The translations under genes were made by a program, and so were the position numbers. The notes below the pieces were generated by a model. It was not told the DNA's origin. It saw only the letters and a program-made list of their open reading frames with translations, and did no database searches. Shown here one piece after another: positions 6,967-20,800 of a stretch of 24,060 nucleotides of DNA. The number at the start of each line of letters is the position of its first letter. The first letter of the stretch is position 1. This DNA is from a virus: the IMG/VR virus record IMGVR_UViG_3300020442_000596, positions 1 to 24,060 of that record; one strand, 5' to 3'.

Positions 6967-8519
6967 ACGATATCCAGATGTGTCTCACCACCTTTGGTGA
7001 TAGAAATAGATGCGAGAAGAAAATCGCTTACCTTGAGAGGTGCTGATGGAACAGGATTATCAGTACCAATCATAGGACCTTTCTGACTAGATTTAGCACC
7101 TGCGGATACTGCCTGACTCATGGCACTAATGCCCTGCTGTATAATATTACTTGTAGATGACACAGCACTAGCAGTGTTGCTAATCAACACGGACTCATTC
7201 TGACTATTTACACTGTTAGTCAGGAAGTTAATGTCTTGCTTTAGGTTAGTAGATCCTTCCTGGGCAGGTGTTACGCCGCTCAGATTATTAGACACCGAAG
7301 TATCACTTACCATTGATGACAGACTTGTCGATTGCTTCAGCATCTGACCAGTCTGGTTCAGCGTGGAGCTCATATTATTGAGAGTGGTAGATCCTGTAGC
7401 AAGGTTTGCTGTGGCACCTGACATTGAAGGAGCAGATATGCCAGACATGGCACTCTTGAACCCATGAACAGGTCCACCACGACCAGTGCTAGCACGTGCT
7501 CCACCTTTGTGACCAGTTTTAGACTTCGGTGCTTCTTCTCCACTAGCACCACCAACGTTACTCTTACTGTCAGCAGAAGTTACTGGTGACTTCTTATTAC
7601 CAAACATTCCCCCGAAGAAGTTACCAACGTTGTTAACAAGACTCCTAGCGCCCCCAAAGACCTGGGCAATACCAGGAATTTTTTTCATGGTTGCCTGTGG
7701 AATACCGAACGCTTTCGCTACGTTGGCAGCATTTTTTACAATGTCATCAAAGGCAGGAACTCCAGGGATACCAATCTTACCTAGCAAGCTAGACAGACCT
7801 GCTGCCATTGCTTTGAGTGGCAGTGCCATAGCGCCTGCCATTGCTTTCTTATACTGATCAAGACCCAGCATTTCCTGCATCTTAGCAGCAGGATGCTTCT
7901 TACCTACAAGTCCAGCAGACTCAAGAGATTCAGATGAAGACTTCTTACCTTCAGATACACCCTCAGCAGCAGTCACTGGCGACTTGCCAGGCATCATCAT
8001 CTTCTGAGCTGCTGGAGATATCACACCACCCTGAGAGAATCCAGGAGTCTGTTGTGTCTTACCAGGTTCTGTGATTGGGTTTCTAGGTGAACCCGCTGGT
8101 GGAGTTATGTTAGCATTACCAGTGTCCTTAGGTGGTTGAACACCAGTCTGAGAACCTTCATCCTTTACTACATCTTCTGGTTCAACGTCTCTATCATCAC
8201 CACCCTCCATGAACTCCAGAGGATTCTCCAGGTCCAGGGCAGGAAGTGATTGGGGATTGATAAAGTTAGAGAACTTCTGCATCTTGGTAGATGCTTTCAG
8301 TACCTCAAATCCACCAGCGAGATCAGTCTTTATCCTACCATTCTTACTGTCATCCCTAGCGTCAGCTTCAGCAAGCGACTGGACACTTTCTGACAGCAGG
8401 AAATCCTTATACTTATCCTCACGGAACATGAGGTTAAGTAGGTGGTTCCTGTCTTCAAACAGTTTATTGAGACTCTCTAGAATCTCAGATACGTCTTTTA
8501 GGGATGGAAATTCTTTCAT
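6963..8519 (-). CDS. Low-complexity virion structural protein, 518 aa
   Basis: Only the first 60 residues look folded and helical (LKDVSEILESLNKLFEDRNH). The rest is Ser/Gly/Pro/Ala-rich, with a Pro-rich stretch (about 120-160), a glycine-zipper-like segment (about 230-310: PLKAMAAGLSSLLGKIGIPG) and a long Ser/Thr/Asn/Gln-rich region (about 330-490). Composition and location between the tape-measure candidate and gp27 suggest a tail-interior or hub-associated protein. It is not recognisable as T4 gp28 or gp29. The start at 8519 overlaps the upstream stop as ATGA. Confidence 0.7.
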   Translation of the reverse strand: MKEFPSLKDVSEILESLNKLFEDRNHLLNLMFREDKYKDFLLSESVQSLAEADARDDSKNGRIKTDLAGGFEVLKASTKMQKFSNFINPQSLPALDLENPLEFMEGGDDRDVEPEDVVKDEGSQTGVQPPKDTGNANITPPAGSPRNPITEPGKTQQTPGFSQGGVISPAAQKMMMPGKSPVTAAEGVSEGKKSSSESLESAGLVGKKHPAAKMQEMLGLDQYKKAMAGAMALPLKAMAAGLSSLLGKIGIPGVPAFDDIVKNAANVAKAFGIPQATMKKIPGIAQVFGGARSLVNNVGNFFGGMFGNKKSPVTSADSKSNVGGASGEEAPKSKTGHKGGARASTGRGGPVHGFKSAMSGISAPSMSGATANLATGSTTLNNMSSTLNQTGQMLKQSTSLSSMVSDTSVSNNLSGVTPAQEGSTNLKQDINFLTNSVNSQNESVLISNTASAVSSTSNIIQQGISAMSQAVSAGAKSSQKGPMIGTDNPVPSAPLKVSDFLLASISITKGGETHLDIV

Positions 8520-11209
8520 AATACCTCGTACCTACCTGAGAATGGGTTGATACCATATGATTTATGCTTGGTCTTTGGTTGTTCAACAGATGGCGTAGCC
8601 ACGCGAACAGGCATAGGTTGTGCTTGAGGCACAGGCATAACAATAGGAATCATTGATGGAGTCTTGCCGCCACCACCAGTCGGTGTCAGATTCTTGCTCT
8701 TGTCAACAGGAGTCACACCTCCACCACCTTTGTCATCGGTTGGTGTTGACGATGATCCTGAACCCAGGGCAATCAACTTGGCATAGGCAGCAGGGTTACC
8801 TGATCCACCATAAGCACCAGAGTTCTTTCTAGTGTCTGCCTCAAAGTGTAGGTGAGGTCCACTAGATGAACCAGCACCAGGAGATCCTGCCGCACCTCCA
8901 GTCTTAGAGATAACCTCACCAGCAGCAAACTCACCAGATCTCTTGACAAACTCACTAAGGTGAGCAAGTCTGATCTGAATGTTGTGGGATGGAATCCATA
9001 CATCTTGCATGAAACCATATCCACCATAGTTACCAGCAGCAAGAATCTCACCAGGAGCATTCAATGCCAGAGGTGTACCTGTAGGTGTACCAACGTCAAT
9101 ACCACCATGTAACTTTCCAGGTTGTCCAGTTACGGGGTGAGTTCTAGGACCATATGGACTGGTGATGGGGAATCCAGATACCATTCCACCGTTCGTCTCA
9201 CCTGCTCCAGTGATGCTAGCAGGAGTAGGTGTGAGATCACCAGAGCTAACACCAGCAGATCCAGGTGTCATTGTGCTGCTACTGCTGCTAGTGTCTGTCT
9301 TGGGTGCGTTCTTGACACGACGCAGAGCATCCATGACCTGACCAGGAGTCATTGCGCTAGATTGTCCAGGGTAGTGGAATTTACCCTGAGCATTTGGCAT
9401 TGAAGCAAACTCTTGAGACAGTCCCTGCATGAACTGTTCATCAGTAATCTTACCTGCTAACCACTCATCACCCTGACGGTTGCCTCTGATATTTACATCC
9501 AAAATAATTTTATCCTGATTAGCAGGACTGAAGAGATCTTTGTCAGGATCTAATCCTGCTCTACGAGCTCTCTCTGCCAGGAATCTAGGCAACTGTTGAT
9601 ACTTACCAACAGCACCTGATGCTTTGTTGATGACCTGAGTGATGGTCATCTGTGTCATCCCAGGCATAGTTGTACTGGGATACATTGCTTCGTAGTTACC
9701 ACCTGACTCTTTGCCAGCAATCAAATCAAGTAGAGGTCCCCATTGACCGCTAGTTCCAGCAGTCGCCATGGAAGCAATAGCAGGTGGACCACTAATAGGT
9801 GGGGGTGGCATCATTGTCGCAGCAGATGCTGGACCCATCACCATGTTCATTGCTCCACCGATTATACCAGTTAATGTTGAACCAATCTTACTCATCATAT
9901 CAGGCACCTTACTTCCGCTAAAGATCTTAGCAGCACCGATGTTGGCAAATCCTCCAAATACTCCCTTGAGTCTAGAAACCTCACCCTTGAGGGCACCAAT
10001 GGCGGAACCACCAACAGGGATCGTGTTGAGGAAGTTTGAAGCAAAACCAACCAGCATACCGCCAGTTGATTTTAGCATGTTTTGGTAACCTTCGCCAAGC
10101 TTAGATTGTGGAAGCACAACCTCAGGTTCACCACCCTCACCAATCAGAGCACGGGTGGGAGACTTGACAACACCACCCTCCGCCATTTTTTGTACTGGAT
10201 TTCCATAAGCAGTAATCTTCTCTTCACTGCTCATGTTCGCGAAGGCTTCGTATTCCTCCAGCGGAACAGGGTTGCCATTAATATATCCCTGACCAGTCGC
10301 CATGTCAAAGCGACCAGTTACCTTTGATCTAGTCTCTGTCTTCTCTTCAGATTTTTGTGGTTTATTGGCACCAGTGACCATATCAGCAGCGCCACCTGCG
10401 AGATTGGCACCGATCAACCCTCCGAGAAGTCCACCAATACCAGCACCGATAGCGGTGCCAATACCAGGACCGAAGAATGTACCAATTACAGCACCTGCCT
10501 TTGTACCAGCAGCAAATCCAGCAGAACCACCAGCAGCAGTGGCACCAGCACCTACACCTGCCTGTAAGTTAGTCTGACCCTGTAATTTTCTACTTCCAAA
10601 CTCTAGACCAGCAAACAAGACAGAAAGAGGACCAGGACCACCTTTCATGCTAGGCAACTTAACCTTAGGTAGACTTACCTTAGGCATTTTGACCTTAGGT
10701 AGGTTGACTTTAGGTAGTTTAACCTTAGATACGGTGTCTTTTATTCCTGTTAATGCTCTACCAGGAGCTCTACGCAATGCTTGACCAGCACGTTGCCCTC
10801 TACCTTCGAGGCTATTGAAAAACCTACCAGGTTTAGTTCTCCCAAGTTTTCTACCAGCACGCAGACCCTGAGCCTTACGGTTTCGCATGAAGCGACCGAC
10901 TCTATTACCCTTCTGCTTTGCTCTTAATTGCTTTTTTGTCGGTTTCTTACGTCGGGGGCGACGCATGTAGGGGAGACCACCACCACCTCCACCAAACTTA
11001 GATTTATCTTCGTGACCCTTTCCTTTCTTTCCAAGGACTACCCTTGTCTGTTGTACCTGAGTCATGAAGAAGAACTTCTTCCTGTTTCTCAGGTAAGTTA
11101 GATACTCATGTTCAGTATCTAACATCTGATTGGCACTCTTAGCTACCGAGCTAACTGGTTTGACCAGTTTGCCCCCTAGTAGTCTGTTAAGTGCCGTACG
11201 TTTGATCAT
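8516..11209 (-). CDS. Tape-measure-like tail protein with muramidase-like and M23 peptidase domains
   Basis: An 897-residue protein. It has a basic N-terminus (1-150), pentapeptide repeats LPKVx (165-186) and a glycine-zipper hydrophobic segment (about 215-280). The segment at 342-370 (MAEGGVVKSPTRALIGEGGE) is a signature common in phage tape-measure proteins. A lysozyme/transglycosylase-like domain follows (about 488-610; Glu in LLDLIAGKESGGNYE at about 501). The C-terminal M23 domain (about 680-800) has HxxxD (His701, Asp705), a His in RLAHLSEF (750) and HLH (786-788). The peptidoglycan-cutting domains presumably act during genome entry. It lies directly after the gp26/frameshift gene (ATGA overlap), the usual chaperone-tape measure order. 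At 0.15 nm per residue it would span about 135 nm, plausible for a cyanomyovirus tail. Confidence 0.8.
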   Translation of the reverse strand: MIKRTALNRLLGGKLVKPVSSVAKSANQMLDTEHEYLTYLRNRKKFFFMTQVQQTRVVLGKKGKGHEDKSKFGGGGGGLPYMRRPRRKKPTKKQLRAKQKGNRVGRFMRNRKAQGLRAGRKLGRTKPGRFFNSLEGRGQRAGQALRRAPGRALTGIKDTVSKVKLPKVNLPKVKMPKVSLPKVKLPSMKGGPGPLSVLFAGLEFGSRKLQGQTNLQAGVGAGATAAGGSAGFAAGTKAGAVIGTFFGPGIGTAIGAGIGGLLGGLIGANLAGGAADMVTGANKPQKSEEKTETRSKVTGRFDMATGQGYINGNPVPLEEYEAFANMSSEEKITAYGNPVQKMAEGGVVKSPTRALIGEGGEPEVVLPQSKLGEGYQNMLKSTGGMLVGFASNFLNTIPVGGSAIGALKGEVSRLKGVFGGFANIGAAKIFSGSKVPDMMSKIGSTLTGIIGGAMNMVMGPASAATMMPPPPISGPPAIASMATAGTSGQWGPLLDLIAGKESGGNYEAMYPSTTMPGMTQMTITQVINKASGAVGKYQQLPRFLAERARRAGLDPDKDLFSPANQDKIILDVNIRGNRQGDEWLAGKITDEQFMQGLSQEFASMPNAQGKFHYPGQSSAMTPGQVMDALRRVKNAPKTDTSSSSSTMTPGSAGVSSGDLTPTPASITGAGETNGGMVSGFPITSPYGPRTHPVTGQPGKLHGGIDVGTPTGTPLALNAPGEILAAGNYGGYGFMQDVWIPSHNIQIRLAHLSEFVKRSGEFAAGEVISKTGGAAGSPGAGSSSGPHLHFEADTRKNSGAYGGSGNPAAYAKLIALGSGSSSTPTDDKGGGGVTPVDKSKNLTPTGGGGKTPSMIPIVMPVPQAQPMPVRVATPSVEQPKTKHKSYGINPFSGRYEVL
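10652..10717 (-). repeat. In-gene tandem 15-nt repeat encoding LPKVx pentapeptides
   Basis: Within the tape-measure candidate, residues 165-186 read LPKVN, LPKVK, MPKVS, LPKVK, LP. The plus strand shows the matching recurring ACCTTAGGTA-type units about every 15 nt. The units are not identical at DNA level. The Pro/Lys/Val pattern predicts an extended, positively charged strand rather than a helix. Confidence 0.8.
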
Positions 11210-12092
11210 TTACGTTTGCGTTTTTCTTCTTCGATGCGGTCTCTTTCATCTTGTAGATGCTTAGCAAGCAAGTTCACGTAAATGTCCCTCTCCCAAGGGA
11301 TCATATTCTCAATATCCGTCAATGTATATTTATGATGCTGTACGAGGGCGAAGTTAGTCGTATAAAACCTTTCCAACCCCTCTTGGAAGAGGCTTATCCG
11401 AAAAAATTAATCAGTCCTTCGATAACAGTTGTAGTCTCTACCTTAGTCTTAGGATTCTTAACAGTAATCGTATGACTCAGTTTAGGCATGGTGTCAAAGA
11501 AGTTCTGAACCTTCTCAAACTGTTCGTTGGTAAGAGTCTCCAACCATTCCTTTGCCTCTTGTGGAGTAAAGTCACCACAATCTTCACCATTAGCAAAGAC
11601 ACGATCAATACATGCTGCTACCAGCTCATATGGATCAGGTTCTTCTTCCATGATGTTGACCTTGGCAAAGTAATCAAGGTTTGGATACTTCATGACAGCA
11701 ACAATGTCGTCTGTCAGTTTAATCTCACTCTCATGACCGTCAGGGAAGACAACCTTTACATCATCCACAGGGAATGTGACAGGCACCTTTACTTCTGGAT
11801 CGTCATCACAAGGTACTTCAATTTCAATCGTTTCTTGTACAGAACGACCACGAAGTTGTAAGAAGATATACTCTACATCAAACAGAGCGAGGTCTTCCAT
11901 TTTGAACCGTGAATGAATACAGTTCTTGAAGATCTTGGTGATAGCATCAATGATCTGTGTTTCATTCTCACTCTCCATTGCCAGGATGAGAATCTTTTGC
12001 TCTCTCACCAGGAATGGACGATACTTAAGTTTCTTCTTTGATGAAGGGACAACCAACTCATAGGTTGGAGTGCTAATTTCAGGAAGTGGCAT
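11206..12092 (-). CDS. Predicted gp26 -1 frameshift fusion (long tail-chaperone form)
   Basis: If ribosomes slip -1 on the T TTT TTC heptamer (11406-11400), the 231 residues of gp26 up to FF are joined to 64 residues in the -1 frame, giving about 295 aa. The extension begins RISLFQEGLERFYTTNFALV, contains DIENMIPWERDIYVNLL and ends in a charged helix ERDRIEEEKRKRK, with its stop at 11208-11206. The -1 frame has a TAA just upstream of the heptamer, and no ATG until the Met inside ENMIPWERD, where the motif would be cut. Independent initiation is therefore unlikely unless a TTG is used. The stop overlaps the next ATG as ATGA. The organisation mirrors gpG/gpGT tail chaperones next to tape-measure genes. 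Unproven but well supported by pattern. Confidence 0.75.
11371..11419 (-). promoter_or_regulatory. Programmed -1 ribosomal frameshift signal
   Basis: In minus-strand order: an SD-like AAGGA (11419-11415), 8 nt, then the slippery heptamer T_TTT_TTC (11406-11400) in the correct register with gp26 codons TTT TTC. A 7-nt spacer containing the gp26 TAA follows (11396-11394). Then comes a 5-bp stem CCTCT (11392-11388) / AGAGG (11383-11379) with loop TCCA. The loop is complementary to TGGA at 11375-11372, so a compact pseudoknot is possible. An upstream SD-like element, an X_XXY_YYZ site and a downstream structure at 5-9 nt are the three parts known from bacterial -1 sites such as dnaX. Confidence 0.75.
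11394..12092 (-). CDS. 26: Baseplate hub assembly protein gp26-like (zero-frame product)
   Basis: Protein of 232 residues matching the T4 gp26-type baseplate protein family. It opens MPLPEISTPTYELVVPSSKK, then KYRPFLVREQKILILAMESE and DLALFDVEYIFLQLRGRSVQ, followed by a beta-rich middle and a C-terminal helix ending GLINFFG. The KYRPFLVREEK and DVEYLFLQLR patterns are the family hallmarks as I know them. In T4 gp26 is needed for hub assembly, with a chaperone-like rather than a major structural role. It starts 2 nt after the stop of the tail-tube-like gene. The last codons form a slippery sequence that can produce the extended form. Confidence 0.85.
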   Translation of the reverse strand: MPLPEISTPTYELVVPSSKKKLKYRPFLVREQKILILAMESENETQIIDAITKIFKNCIHSRFKMEDLALFDVEYIFLQLRGRSVQETIEIEVPCDDDPEVKVPVTFPVDDVKVVFPDGHESEIKLTDDIVAVMKYPNLDYFAKVNIMEEEPDPYELVAACIDRVFANGEDCGDFTPQEAKEWLETLTNEQFEKVQNFFDTMPKLSHTITVKNPKTKVETTTVIEGLINFFG

Positions 12093-12094
12093 AA

Positions 12095-12793
12095 TTAATC
12101 AGATTTTTTCCGTTGCTTCGGAGGGGTGAGGCGGGTGCTGTACTCATAGTACATGCCCACGGACAATTTGACCACCTGACTAGAGGCAGCACTATATGGT
12201 ATTGATGATACCATGTATGGGTATGCTTTGACAAGCTGTATGTGGAAGTTATCATAGTTAGTACCGTCAAACTTCTCATACTTTCTAATCTTCACATCGC
12301 ACGTATAGTCATTGTAGAAAGATGTAGCGAATGCTTGCTTCTCTTTCTTAGCAAAGACAGGACCATAAGGATCACCAGTAAAGCTAGCACCTTCAAAGTT
12401 ACCTGCGATGTAATCCTGCCATGCGGTGAAGAATCTCATCGGTGTAGAGTTGACGTCCAGGATGAACGACAGATCCATCTCATTATATACCTTCGCCATG
12501 GCGGGTTTCATGTTGATACCCTTTTTGACACTACGAACATCCTGAGATGTCATGTTGACACCAGGAATCTGTACCTCATTGGCGAGCATACTAATCAACT
12601 CACCATCGAGTCTAGAAGTTTTCCTACCAGAATCGGGAGGAGTAGTTGCCCGTGCCAACCAGTCACCAAGACTCGGCTTCCCACCTTTGAAGGCAGGTTG
12701 GGGAGGGAAAGAAAACTCAATGTCATACAGGTTACCGCTGCTGATCGAGTTGTTAATCTTTGATAAGAATCTGGTAACTGAGGGGATACCCAT
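12095..12793 (-). CDS. Tail-tube-like / baseplate tube initiator protein (gp54-like candidate)
   Basis: Protein of 232 residues with the tail-tube type of fold (T4 gp19/gp54/gp48 relatives). Segments YDIEFSFPPQP, LANEVQIPGVNM, EMDLSFILDVNSTPMRFFTA, YTCDVKIRKYEKFDGTN and FHIQLVKAYPYMVSSIPYSA follow the strand order of these proteins. The 'pG..m' loop and the 'aYP..i....y' strand are typical. gp19 is shorter (163 aa), so a tube initiator (gp54 role) is more likely than the main tube, with gp48 encoded divergently at 13660. It is the first gene of the minus-strand hub operon, under the late promoter box at 12821-12828. The exact T4 counterpart is an inference. Confidence 0.65.
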   Translation of the reverse strand: MGIPSVTRFLSKINNSISSGNLYDIEFSFPPQPAFKGGKPSLGDWLARATTPPDSGRKTSRLDGELISMLANEVQIPGVNMTSQDVRSVKKGINMKPAMAKVYNEMDLSFILDVNSTPMRFFTAWQDYIAGNFEGASFTGDPYGPVFAKKEKQAFATSFYNDYTCDVKIRKYEKFDGTNYDNFHIQLVKAYPYMVSSIPYSAASSQVVKLSVGMYYEYSTRLTPPKQRKKSD

Positions 12794-14955: not shown

Positions 14956-15581
14956 TGTTATTCAAAAGAATGCCAGATGTAGCTTACAACTACTCTAACT
15001 CAATCACCGACCCCCAGTTCTTGATCGTCAAGAATCTTTGGCGTAGAAATGAAATCTTAGACCAGTATCTGACTTCGTTGACTCTGTTCGATACACATGT
15101 CATCCAGGATGGAGAGACCCCAGAGTCTATAAGTTTCAAATACTACGACAATGTATTTTTTGGTTGGACTATCTTCTTTGTCAATGAGAAGAGTAACTAC
15201 CACAGAGACTGGCCAATGGATTCTGGTACTCTAAAAGAGTATGTTTACAATAAGTATCCAAACCCAGATGCTACCTCACACTATGAAACCACAAAGGTAG
15301 TGGACGCTCTGGATAGAACGATTATTGAAGCAGGAAAGCAGGTACCTAGTAACTTCTCCATTACTTACTTCGACGGTACAGCATCTGCTGGTGTAACTGT
15401 AAACCCTGTACAGACAGTCAGCTACTACGAAAAAGAAACTCGTGAGAATGATGCTCGTAGAGAGATCAAACTAATAAGACCCGCCCACATCAGGGACTTT
15501 GTTGACGTATACGCCAGGACCTTGAGGAGAGCGGGTGCTATGGAAATCGCGTTGTCAGAACACGACGTTAAAATTGAGTGA
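14955..15581 (+). CDS. 53: Baseplate wedge subunit gp53
   Basis: Protein of 208 residues (T4 gp53 is 196). The LysM-like core is visible at about 48-78 (THVIQDGETPESISFKYYDN, then VFFGWTIFFVNE), and the N-terminal YNYSNSITDPQFLIVKNLWR region fits the wedge-protein pattern. gp53 clamps the gp6-gp7-gp25 wedge in the T4 baseplate. It starts with a TAATG overlap with gp48. It is the last gene of the plus-strand operon; its 3' end overlaps the 3' end of talC by 14 nt on the opposite strand, and I see no terminator hairpin in the junction. Confidence 0.85.
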   Translation: MLFKRMPDVAYNYSNSITDPQFLIVKNLWRRNEILDQYLTSLTLFDTHVIQDGETPESISFKYYDNVFFGWTIFFVNEKSNYHRDWPMDSGTLKEYVYNKYPNPDATSHYETTKVVDALDRTIIEAGKQVPSNFSITYFDGTASAGVTVNPVQTVSYYEKETRENDARREIKLIRPAHIRDFVDVYARTLRRAGAMEIALSEHDVKIE

Positions 15582-16224
15582 CCTTAGGGATACCTGCCCA
15601 GTCCTTCTCAAAGATTTCAATACCCTTATCAGTGAGGATGTGATTATACATGTCCTCAAAGACTTTGGGTGGCATCGTACAAATCTCAGCACCGTTGTAC
15701 CATGACCGCACAGCACGTTGTACGTTGCGGATGGATGCTGCCAGGACTTGAGTCTCGCGACGGTGGATGCGATAAACCTCAGAGATAGAACGAACAACCT
15801 CCAGACCTGCGACTGACTGATCATCCAGGCGTCCCACAAAGGGAGACACATAGGTAGCACCTGCCTTGGAAGCGAGAATCGCTTGAGCAGCGCTAAAGAT
15901 CAGAGTCACGTTGGTTCGGATGTGACGCTTGGACAGTTCCTTACACACCATCAGACCATCCACATTACATGGAAGCTTGATGGTAGCGTTGGTCTTGTAC
16001 TTGTCAGCAAGGCGGAAACCTTCGTTCAGCATCTCATCATAGTCACCAACAACCTCCATGGAGATGTCAGGGACCCCAAGTTCCACGAGTTCGTCATAGA
16101 CAGACTCGGGATGGTTACCTGCCTTATAAACCAGGGTAGGGTTGGTAGTGACGCCATCAATCAAACCTGTATCCCACAGGCGACGGATCGTTGGAAGATC
16201 CGCCGTATCAAGAAATATCTTCAT
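15568..16224 (-). CDS. talC: Transaldolase, TalC/fructose-6-phosphate aldolase type
   Basis: Protein of 218 residues, the length of the short TalC/FSA transaldolase class. The visible signature is MKIFLDTADL, then GVTTNPTLVYKAG (Asp6 and Asn28 conserved) and ATIKLPCNVDGL, where Lys83 would be the Schiff-base lysine. TYVSPFVGRLDD and AASIRN follow. Cyanophage TalC moves three-carbon units in the pentose phosphate pathway and is thought to shift host carbon flow toward NADPH and ribose for phage DNA. It starts with an ATGA overlap with the gp32 stop (16221-16224), so it is translated with the replication genes. It converges on gp53. Confidence 0.95.
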   Translation of the reverse strand: MKIFLDTADLPTIRRLWDTGLIDGVTTNPTLVYKAGNHPESVYDELVELGVPDISMEVVGDYDEMLNEGFRLADKYKTNATIKLPCNVDGLMVCKELSKRHIRTNVTLIFSAAQAILASKAGATYVSPFVGRLDDQSVAGLEVVRSISEVYRIHRRETQVLAASIRNVQRAVRSWYNGAEICTMPPKVFEDMYNHILTDKGIEIFEKDWAGIPKVTQF

Positions 16225-18343: not shown

Positions 18344-18977
18344 TGTACTCTTTCAGTTTGTGGACGTACTTGAGCTTATCTCTGATTACAAAAACCTGTG
18401 GTTCACCAGTTTCAACAGCTATAATAGTAACTAACTTTTTGACTTTGAGTCCAGTTAGTTCCTGAAACATTATAGCATAGGCAACCTCTTGTGAAAAGTA
18501 GTCTTGAATCCACTCTTCACGTTTTGTCTTCGAGGAGGTCTTGAAGTCAATGATAGCAAGCTCTCCCTCATATTCACCAATACAGTCAACCCGTCCAGCG
18601 AGTTTGAGTGTCTTAGAATATAGGGGTGCTTCAAGTGCGTGTATATTATTTATCTTGTCCAGATAAGGTCTTATCTGACAAAACATCCCCATGGAGAGCA
18701 CATCGTCTTTGTATTGTGAGATGGGGAGATTGCTAAGGTATTCCTCAGCAAGTTTGTGAGTCTTATTGCCACGAGTAGACGCACGCTTAGATACACGGTT
18801 TGCCTCTTCGGCACCGACTCTAGCTCGCCACTGAGCAATACTCTTCTTTTTCATCTCCCCAATAACAGTAGTAACGGAAGGCAACCTGATACCGTCTACC
18901 AGGTAAGTCCTTCCGCTCTTTGTTGTTTCTGCTGTCAGATCAACGAAATTGTGTATGTCTAGGTGATTAAAGACCAA
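18309..18977 (-). CDS. PD-(D/E)XK exonuclease (MGME1/Cas4-like fold)
   Basis: Protein of 222 residues with a PD-(D/E)XK nuclease core: GNKTHKLAEEYL (His74), the acidic EAPLYS (Glu117), GRVDCIG (Asp131), IIDFKTS (Asp144, Lys146) and the QEVAYAIMF helix (Gln163, Tyr167). This set of motifs is found in the MGME1-like and RecB-type single-strand exonucleases common in cyanophages. A role in recombination or DNA processing is likely. The frame opens with TTG at 18977 (11-nt overlap with phoH), with no clear Shine-Dalgarno and no ATG near the start, so the N-terminus is uncertain. Confidence 0.85.
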   Translation of the reverse strand: MVFNHLDIHNFVDLTAETTKSGRTYLVDGIRLPSVTTVIGEMKKKSIAQWRARVGAEEANRVSKRASTRGNKTHKLAEEYLSNLPISQYKDDVLSMGMFCQIRPYLDKINNIHALEAPLYSKTLKLAGRVDCIGEYEGELAIIDFKTSSKTKREEWIQDYFSQEVAYAIMFQELTGLKVKKLVTIIAVETGEPQVFVIRDKLKYVHKLKEYIDYYRSVHGDW

Positions 18978-19710
18978 GGTTAATTTTACTAATCAGGTAG
19001 GATTTCACGAGTCCAGATCGAACGATGTCTTCGACACCAAATTCGACAGAAGTGAACTCATTCATGTTGTCAATGATTTTCATGAAATCCAGGATTCCAT
19101 TCTTTTCATATGTCTTCACCAGGTCAGTCTGTACAACGTCACCAGCAAAGATAACCTTGGTATTCACACCAAGACGGGTGATAATAGAATCGAGTTCGTG
19201 GAAGTTGAGGTTTTGTGACTCATCAACCAGAACGATTGCGTTATCGATGGTAGTACCACGAATGAACGAGGTAGACCAGAATGAGATGCTTTCCTGACCT
19301 TTCAGGTTCTGATACAGCATCTCAAAGGATGCGTCATCAGGCATCTCGAACATGTACCTTACCATATTCTTGTATGGAATCTGGTACAGGTTGCTCTTGT
19401 CCTCATGGTCTCCAGGGAGGAAACCAATCTCTCTAGTAGGAACCAGAGAGCGGACTACGTATAGTTTATCATACTGTGACTTCGGGTCAAGTACCTCTTT
19501 CAAGGCGAGATACATTGCCACAAATGTCTTACCAGTACCAGCAGCTCCATACAGGAAAAGGTTCTGATTCTTGTCATACGCATCCCAGACCTTTTCTTGT
19601 GCTGGTGTTAGCGCTTTAATGTTGAGCATGTGCTCAACGCCGATAGGTTTCCTTTTCATTTGTCTTTTTGTCAGTCCGACCATGGATGGTTGCTTTTTGG
19701 TTACTGGCAT
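18967..19710 (-). CDS. phoH: PhoH-family ATPase
   Basis: Protein of 247 residues with a clear P-loop: LFLYGAAGTGKTF (Walker A, 55-62), IVLVDESQNLN (Walker B, Asp163-Glu164) and a sensor-like VIFAGDVVQTD. The sequence LTPAQEKVWDAYDKNQNLFL precedes the P-loop, as usual in PhoH. PhoH proteins are widespread in marine phages. They are related to the RNA/DNA helicase-type ATPases, and their role in infection is unsettled. The ATG at 19710 (MPVTKKQP) is 3 nt after the previous stop. Confidence 0.95.
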   Translation of the reverse strand: MPVTKKQPSMVGLTKRQMKRKPIGVEHMLNIKALTPAQEKVWDAYDKNQNLFLYGAAGTGKTFVAMYLALKEVLDPKSQYDKLYVVRSLVPTREIGFLPGDHEDKSNLYQIPYKNMVRYMFEMPDDASFEMLYQNLKGQESISFWSTSFIRGTTIDNAIVLVDESQNLNFHELDSIITRLGVNTKVIFAGDVVQTDLVKTYEKNGILDFMKIIDNMNEFTSVEFGVEDIVRSGLVKSYLISKINLGL

Positions 19711-19953: not shown

Positions 19954-20168
19954 CAGTCTTTCTCCTTTGCTTTCTTGTTAAAACCAAAAGGTCCGACCTT
20001 ATCCTTCACTCGTTCCTTCATTACGGCAGTACCGAGTGCTTCCATAACCTTGAGTACATCTTCTGCCTTGTGTGGACCTGTGCCCATACGCTCGGCAGCG
20101 AAGTTGTACTTCTGAAAAAACTCATCAGAGACGAGTTTGTAATCATCAACTGTAATCGGTTCAATCAT
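19953..20168 (-). CDS. Small hypothetical protein, 71 aa
   Basis: Helical small protein (MIEPITVDDYKLVSDEFFQK, then EDVLKVMEALGTAVMKERVK), with a lysine-rich end (FGFNKKAKEKD) and no recognised domain. ATG 20168 forms an ATGA overlap with the thyX stop and is preferred; an ATG two codons upstream (20174) is equally possible. It resembles small genes commonly found beside thyX and phoH in cyanophages, but I cannot name a family. Confidence 0.65.
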   Translation of the reverse strand: MIEPITVDDYKLVSDEFFQKYNFAAERMGTGPHKAEDVLKVMEALGTAVMKERVKDKVGPFGFNKKAKEKD

Positions 20169-20800
20169 GACCATTCAAGTGCTTCAGCACAAATAGGGAA
20201 CTGTTCAACAAATATAGCACGGCACGCTTCCGCGATGTCCATGTGTTCTTTTTGGGTGCCATTGGCACTCCGTAAATTTATATAGTGGATCCAGGATCTA
20301 CACGAGCCTGTCATGTAGATACGAGTAGGCACAGCAAGAGGAAGCACAAAACGGGCACACTCTTTAGCAATATTCTGACGAAGCAGCTCATTATAAAGAT
20401 CCATGCCCTCTTCAAAGTGCCTGGCAATTTTCCGTTGTAATAGAGTCCTAGTCTCGGGACTGATATCATCGATTGAGTTTTGCCTGTTCTTGTCATCTTG
20501 CCTCCGCAGATCTGGAACAGGGATTTCGTTGGATAGTAGATTAGTGTCAGCATACCTTTGCGAAAATTCTTGATATGTGAAACTACGGTGACGCAAAATT
20601 TGAGCCGCCAGTCCTCTGGTGGTCTCAATCTCTAGTGTCATGAACGATTGTTCAAAAACGCTCCAATGATCGTGCTTAATACAATACTTAAGGAGACCAG
20701 CAACCTTAGGATTTTCCTGGTTGTTGGGGTTGCTAACTCTCGCCACATACCCCATAACTTTCTCGGCGTCAGGGGTAACACTAATAAGACGTACTGTCAT
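20165..20800 (-). CDS. thyX: Flavin-dependent thymidylate synthase ThyX
   Basis: Protein of 211 residues with the ThyX motif RHR-x7-S: RHRSFTYQEFSQRY (Arg70, His71, Arg72, Ser80). It also has the upstream HDHWSVFEQSFMTLEIE and the C-terminal GSCRSWIHYINLRSANGTQK active-site region. It makes dTMP from dUMP using FAD, NADPH and methylene-tetrahydrofolate, supplying DNA precursors during infection. It is complete by comparison with the family (about 210-250 aa). It starts with an ATGA overlap (20797-20800). Confidence 0.95.
   Translation of the reverse strand: MTVRLISVTPDAEKVMGYVARVSNPNNQENPKVAGLLKYCIKHDHWSVFEQSFMTLEIETTRGLAAQILRHRSFTYQEFSQRYADTNLLSNEIPVPDLRRQDDKNRQNSIDDISPETRTLLQRKIARHFEEGMDLYNELLRQNIAKECARFVLPLAVPTRIYMTGSCRSWIHYINLRSANGTQKEHMDIAEACRAIFVEQFPICAEALEWS

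Follow-up and report, generated by a model that had tools for sequence, protein, structure and literature searches.

A conserved slippery heptamer at the end of gp26 as the probable source of a short and long tail-chaperone pair in T4-like phages

How might a T4-like phage encode the long partner of a tail assembly chaperone when the reading frame that would supply its C-terminus has no start codon at its head? The question arises at gp26 of IMG/VR virus record IMGVR_UViG_3300020442_000596, a T4-like phage whose 24-kb sequence (24,060 nucleotides (nt), positions 1 to 24,060 of the record) is referred to here as the window. An earlier note on this sequence proposed a programmed -1 frameshift at the end of gp26, with gp26 as the short form, a fusion of 295 amino acids (aa) as the long form, and the locus as the T4-type cyanophage counterpart of known frameshifted chaperone pairs. 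We consider it highly probable (about 0.92) that such a frameshift yields a short and long tail-chaperone pair, and the reading draws support from conservation of the heptamer and from alignment with T4 gp51. The motif, the reading frames, their conservation, the structure signal and the homology to T4 gp26 and gp51 are seen directly in the sequences; from these we infer the occurrence of slippage, its efficiency and the action of the products as chaperones.

The slippery site and its conservation

gp26 lies on the minus strand (12092-11394), as do the other features of this locus described below, and encodes 232 aa with matches to PF12322 (T4_baseplate, 6e-62) and phrog_150 (3.5e-70). It is the putative short form of the chaperone (G / TAC-N), and its profile alignment to T4 gp26 has an E-value of 5e-25. 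The 3' end of the gene reads GAA GGA CTG ATT AAT TTT TTC GGA TAA, which places the heptamer T_TTT_TTC (11406-11400) in the zero-frame register with a single codon (GGA) before the stop. The -1 frame is closed by a TAA (11409-11407) right before the heptamer, and its next stop is the TGA at 11208-11206. The open reading frame (ORF) between them (T / TAC-C extension, 11206..11406) comprises the two Phe codons, 64 further codons and the TGA, and the first 20 codons of this frame contain no ATG. The predicted gp26+T fusion is 295 aa long, as is that of the near-identical locus L001. A search with the -1 product finds phrog_634 ('baseplate hub assembly catalyst', 5.6e-27) and also the C-terminus of phrog_150, the family of gp26. 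A Shine-Dalgarno-like element, AAGGA (11419-11415), stands 8 nt upstream of the heptamer and has moderate support. Direct reading of the sequence bears out what the earlier note had described here, namely the heptamer in the right register, AAGGA at 8 nt, and a 64-codon open frame with a stop just before the heptamer and no initial ATG.

The comparison drew gp26 loci from IMG/VR, from GTDB genomes and from annotated phages, and the stop of gp26 could be placed in 182. Of these, 176 have T_TTT_TT(C/T/A) in register, with 0-2 codons between it and the stop, and the register is kept even where the stop has moved, giving TTT TTC TAA in locus L072 and TTT TTC TAG in L087. Phages of Synechococcus, Prochlorococcus, Pelagibacter, Vibrio, Aeromonas, Sinorhizobium, Ochrobactrum, Stenotrophomonas and a sulfate reducer all carry the heptamer. 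Relatives L172, L173 and L174 come from contigs that binning had assigned to genomes of Gammaproteobacteria, Flavobacteriales and Euryarchaeota; these are probably phage contigs misbinned into metagenome-assembled genomes. Elsewhere at the same loci, the in-register heptamer occurs 10 times in 60,882 codon pairs of other ORFs of at least 100 aa. The bare string TTTTTTY is not rare in the window, with 14 found against 10.7 expected.

Codon choice within the heptamer is strongly constrained. The first Phe codon is TTT in 90/90 non-redundant loci, compared with 66% TTT across gp26 Phe codons, and the second is TTC in 82/90, compared with 34% TTC in gp26. The codon preceding the two Phe ends in T in the 90 loci, whether it specifies Ser, Asp, Asn, Ala or Arg. 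The heptamer is held at synonymous positions. The 90 loci were drawn from the heptamer-bearing set and are thus preselected for the motif, and therefore 176/182 is the unbiased figure. U_UUU_UUC belongs to an efficient class of -1 heptamers in E. coli (PMC4066793). In the loci tested, the -1 ORF is open and conserved as protein. Conservation of the junction residues was also considered as a test of -1 coding and was set aside as weak, since the zero-frame stop would force the second -1 codon to be hydrophobic. The comparison of gp26 loci that the earlier note had suggested comes out in its favour: across the loci tested the heptamer is kept in register, the -1 ORF is kept with it, and no start codon for that ORF is conserved.

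RNA structure around the heptamer

For the region downstream of the heptamer we kept the -1 protein and randomised its codons over 42 nt starting 5 nt after the heptamer. The native stretch folds more stably than its randomised versions (mean z -2.92), with p < 0.05 in 74% of 90 loci, and stretches further downstream give mean z values of -0.1 to -0.5 under the same synonymous randomisation. The window is predicted to form a stimulatory hairpin of 12 base pairs (bp) at 11365..11395, in which AAGCCT pairs with AGGTTT and TTCCAA with TTGGAA (minimum free energy -11.8 kcal/mol). By synonymous randomisation its z-score is -2.6 to -2.8 (p about 0.01-0.02); by dinucleotide shuffling it is only -1.17.

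Covariation was resolved clade by clade. RNAalifold and mutual information over all 83 gapless sequences identified no common helix because different clades use different stems, and splitting the sequences by clade resolved this. A sister clade of 54 sequences has an 11-bp stem with a 9-nt loop that is backed by covariation: there are 19 double-changed cells against 5.3 after shuffling, none of 500 shuffles scores as high, and the covariation score is 0.165 compared with at most 0.091 when the stem is slid. Pairing partners vary among members of the window's own clade, and covariation there singles out no one fold.

The earlier note had drawn a smaller structure, a 5-bp hairpin 7 nt after the heptamer in which CCTCT (11392-11388) pairs with AGAGG (11383-11379) and the loop TCCA pairs with TGGA (11375-11372). 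The CCTCT/AGAGG pairing is possible and stands as an alternative fold. The exact 5-bp stem with its pseudoknot shows no covariation, and a neighbouring register pairs nearly as well; in the predicted fold the loop-TGGA pairing belongs to the 12-bp stem, and the pseudoknot is not conserved. Since no nucleotide would separate its two stems, we regard the pseudoknotted form as doubtful on steric grounds.

Signals upstream of the heptamer are more modest. The conserved Glu-Gly codons homologous to the AAGGA site use GAG in 53/73 loci, compared with about 30% across gp26. The energy of the upstream Shine-Dalgarno-like duplex is -7.1 against -5.4 for random sequence, and reaches significance in just 10% of loci.

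A fusion or a separate gene

T4 offers a direct comparison for the predicted fusion. gp26+T aligns end to end with Straboviridae gp51 (240 columns, E 9e-22), and T4-type gp51 is about 249 aa long. T alone aligns just to the last 46 residues at the C-terminus of gp51 (E 6e-10), and with T4 gp26 not at all. Outside the T segment, T4 gp26 and gp51 are paralogues (E 5e-17); PF12322 spans residues 1-201 of T4 gp51 and the whole of T4 gp26. This domain is present in both the short and the long form, and the additional C-terminal segment is exclusive to the long form. It follows from the alignment of the fusion with gp51 that T4 encodes the long form as one gene. By sequence homology, T4 gp26 and gp51 are taken to be the same short/long pair split in two genes, with the slippery codons lost from T4 gp26. 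A C-terminal FF is retained in 3/5 T4-type gp26 genes (L090:2303-2929, L185:1489-2118 and L188:1501-2127), where it is encoded by the non-slippery TTC TTT and gp51 is separate and full-length. These genes serve as a natural control, in which the slippery codons are gone when a gene of its own encodes the long form.

The principal alternative makes the downstream ORF a small gene in its own right, gp51, re-initiated from its own start after the gp26 stop, and the T run a coding coincidence. Public records do annotate gp51 on its own, although their labels for the downstream ORF range from gp51 (truncated) to hypothetical protein, and some omit it; Sullivan et al. put cyanophage gp51 at only some 20% of the length usual for gp51 (PMC3037559). 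In 49/90 loci an ATG is found at the fourth codon of the -1 frame, a few nt past the gp26 stop. This commonest ATG, however, sits within the hairpin stem, and starts vary in both position and presence: 9/91 loci, the window and eight further non-redundant ones, lack any ATG within the opening 20 codons of this frame. The earlier note had named a proper start codon with a ribosome site as evidence that would count against frameshifting. Such an arrangement is not general. In 7/91 sequences, all of them P-HM2-like, a purine-rich GAGGG does come a short way ahead of an in-frame ATG at around codon ten of the -1 frame, and that ATG lies downstream of conserved residues; the annotated gp51 of P-HM2 likewise begins well within the conserved region. 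A separate gene would also leave unexplained both the synonymous conservation of T_TTT_TTY and the fusion of T4's T segment to a gp26-like domain, and we judge this explanation very unlikely. The seven P-HM2-like loci (L036, L037, L044, L048, L081, L093 and L094) may nonetheless have an extra start site in the T ORF.

Least probable of all is transcriptional slippage, in which RNA polymerase would add or drop a U at the T run and the mixed mRNAs would give a fusion of similar kind with no ribosomal frameshift, since a run of 6-7 T could conceivably slip polymerase but most loci have six T followed by C, which is short for polymerase, the motif keeps codon register, and a hairpin is conserved at ribosomal spacing.

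Chaperone role and comparison with known systems

With programmed ribosomal frameshifting as the preferred reading, ribosomes translating gp26 would reach T_TTT_TTC and the majority would terminate to give the 232-aa short form. A minority would slip back one base, the Phe tRNAs in the peptidyl and aminoacyl sites re-pairing on TTT TTT, helped by the hairpin about 5 nt downstream and perhaps also by the upstream AAGGA. Slipped ribosomes would decode 64 more codons to produce the 295-aa fusion with its helical T extension, and would stop at ATGA, on the probable tape-measure start codon. Short and long chaperones could then join the tape measure with tube subunits in the manner of lambda gpG/gpGT.

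On the same strand, gp26 and T have two neighbours. Directly upstream of gp26 is a tail tube-type protein (12095..12793; PF23849 Phage_TTP_2, 3e-16; phrog_45 tail tube, 8e-31). On the other side, adjoining T, is the probable tape-measure gene (8516..11209), which encodes 897 aa with a glycine zipper and an M23 peptidase domain. The M23 domain occupies residues 700-794, and annotations of the corresponding ORF in relatives read peptidase M15, lysozyme or chitinase. Lambda-type tail chaperones are typified by a gene directly before the tape measure that yields a short product commonly and, by frameshifting, a long one rarely (PMC5009743); PMC3004832 lists T4 gp26 and gp51 as chaperones of hub assembly. 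Judged by sequence, the short and long forms share their N-terminus, and T4 gp51 is the natural fused form. The chaperone role is thus suggested by homology and position, not by fold.

Structure prediction bears on the last point. The AlphaFold2 model of gp26 has a predicted local distance difference test (pLDDT) score of 87.5 and matches many phage gp26 models, and the T segment is predicted to be helical with modest confidence (pLDDT 75). A fold search with the T domain returned no match, and searches of PDB sequences with gp26 and T4 gp51 likewise returned none.

Several observations weigh against the proposal. No significant fold match links the gp26 model to solved chaperones; among the 50 Foldseek matches listed, the HK97 chaperone 2OB9 has the highest probability, at 0.21 (E 3). 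The adjoining ORF is a probable tape measure by its domains and position only. Locus counts are not independent events because the sequences are related. Finally, six of the 182 loci have no heptamer. Two of these are the T4-type gp26 genes of X20 and F48, which have a full-length gp51 as a gene apart. The other four, from Ackermannviridae (Vi01, Bue1) and two vibriophages, keep the tetramer T_TT(C/T) in register as ATT TTC or CTT TT(C/T), and retain the -1 ORF with its MPWHL motif; three additional Ackermannviridae likewise have the tetramer in register and the -1 ORF. The earlier note had held that loss of the heptamer with retention of the ORF would argue against frameshifting. Such loss is seen only in Ackermannviridae and the two related vibriophages, and T_TT(C/T) is still in register there. 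In E. coli, U_UU.C ranks with the tetramers of highest efficiency (PMC4066793). In Ackermannviridae L182, L183, L189, L190 and L191 the -1 ORF after gp26 is annotated as hypothetical or is unannotated, with just the tetramer T_TTC in register. The -1 ORF stop of Vi01 and T751 lies inside an apparent intrinsic terminator hairpin.

The junction between T and the tape measure is itself compact. In the window the T stop TGA overlaps the tape-measure ATG (11209-11207) as ATGA (11206-11209), and in most loci the T stop is likewise adjoined or overlapped by the ORF that follows (426-897 aa where it is closed), with offsets from the T stop to the next long ORF start of -5 in 57 loci, +2 in 43, -1 in 36 and -8 in 9. 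Since T terminates at or next to the tape-measure start in most loci, frameshifted ribosomes might feed tape-measure translation, so that one slippage event would set long chaperone and tape measure in a fixed ratio. This is a tentative idea to which we give rather low odds; if true, the stoichiometry of tail assembly in T4-like marine phages would be controlled at the hairpin. Elsewhere the window contains genes typical of cyanophages, namely a transaldolase (15568-16224), a PhoH-like gene (18967-19710) and a thymidylate synthase (20165-20800), and no tRNA or Rfam elements were found in it.

The P2 proteins gpE and E+E' are a frameshifted tail chaperone pair comparable to lambda gpG/gpGT, and the slippery heptamer of lambda and P2 differs from the one described here. 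In the comparison with lambda and P2, no significant sequence or fold similarity to any solved chaperone was found.

According to papers that cite their work, Vladimirov, Gautam and Davidson identified the chaperone genes of T4-like phages in 2022 (Virology 566:9-15), and one such summary, in the PRFect paper (PMC10885494), gives some T4-like phages a short gene alongside a long gene that is fused. PMC12846349 treats poly-T -1 signals as known in short-form genes of T4-like phages. The locus is another instance of an already described tail-chaperone frameshift. Since the general identification was published in 2022, the present analysis adds breadth, evidence for structure, the variant seen in Ackermannviridae and a possible link to the tape-measure start; in an incomplete coverage of the literature, we found no paper describing the hairpin, the Ackermannviridae tetramer or stop-start coupling for T4-like chaperones.

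A close parallel is found in Pseudomonas phage Adele and the Vandenendeviridae and Andersonviridae (PMC12846349), where the short-form gene likewise ends with a conserved T-rich -1 site and the -1 ORF, open toward the tape measure, is routinely misannotated as a separate gene. These are other families, and their motif is GTTTTT rather than TTTTTTC. In cyanophages, reading gp51 as the tail of a frameshift fusion and not as a gene would correct a widespread misannotation. T4 itself has the same pair, its gp26 (short) corresponding to gp26 here and its gp51 (long) to the fusion from end to end, but encodes the two proteins as genes on opposite strands with no frameshift. Atkins et al. 2016 described the frameshift as widely conserved in long-tailed phages 'except T4' (PMC5009743), and the loci compared here would bring T4-like phages under the general tail-chaperone rule to which T4 was counted as an exception.
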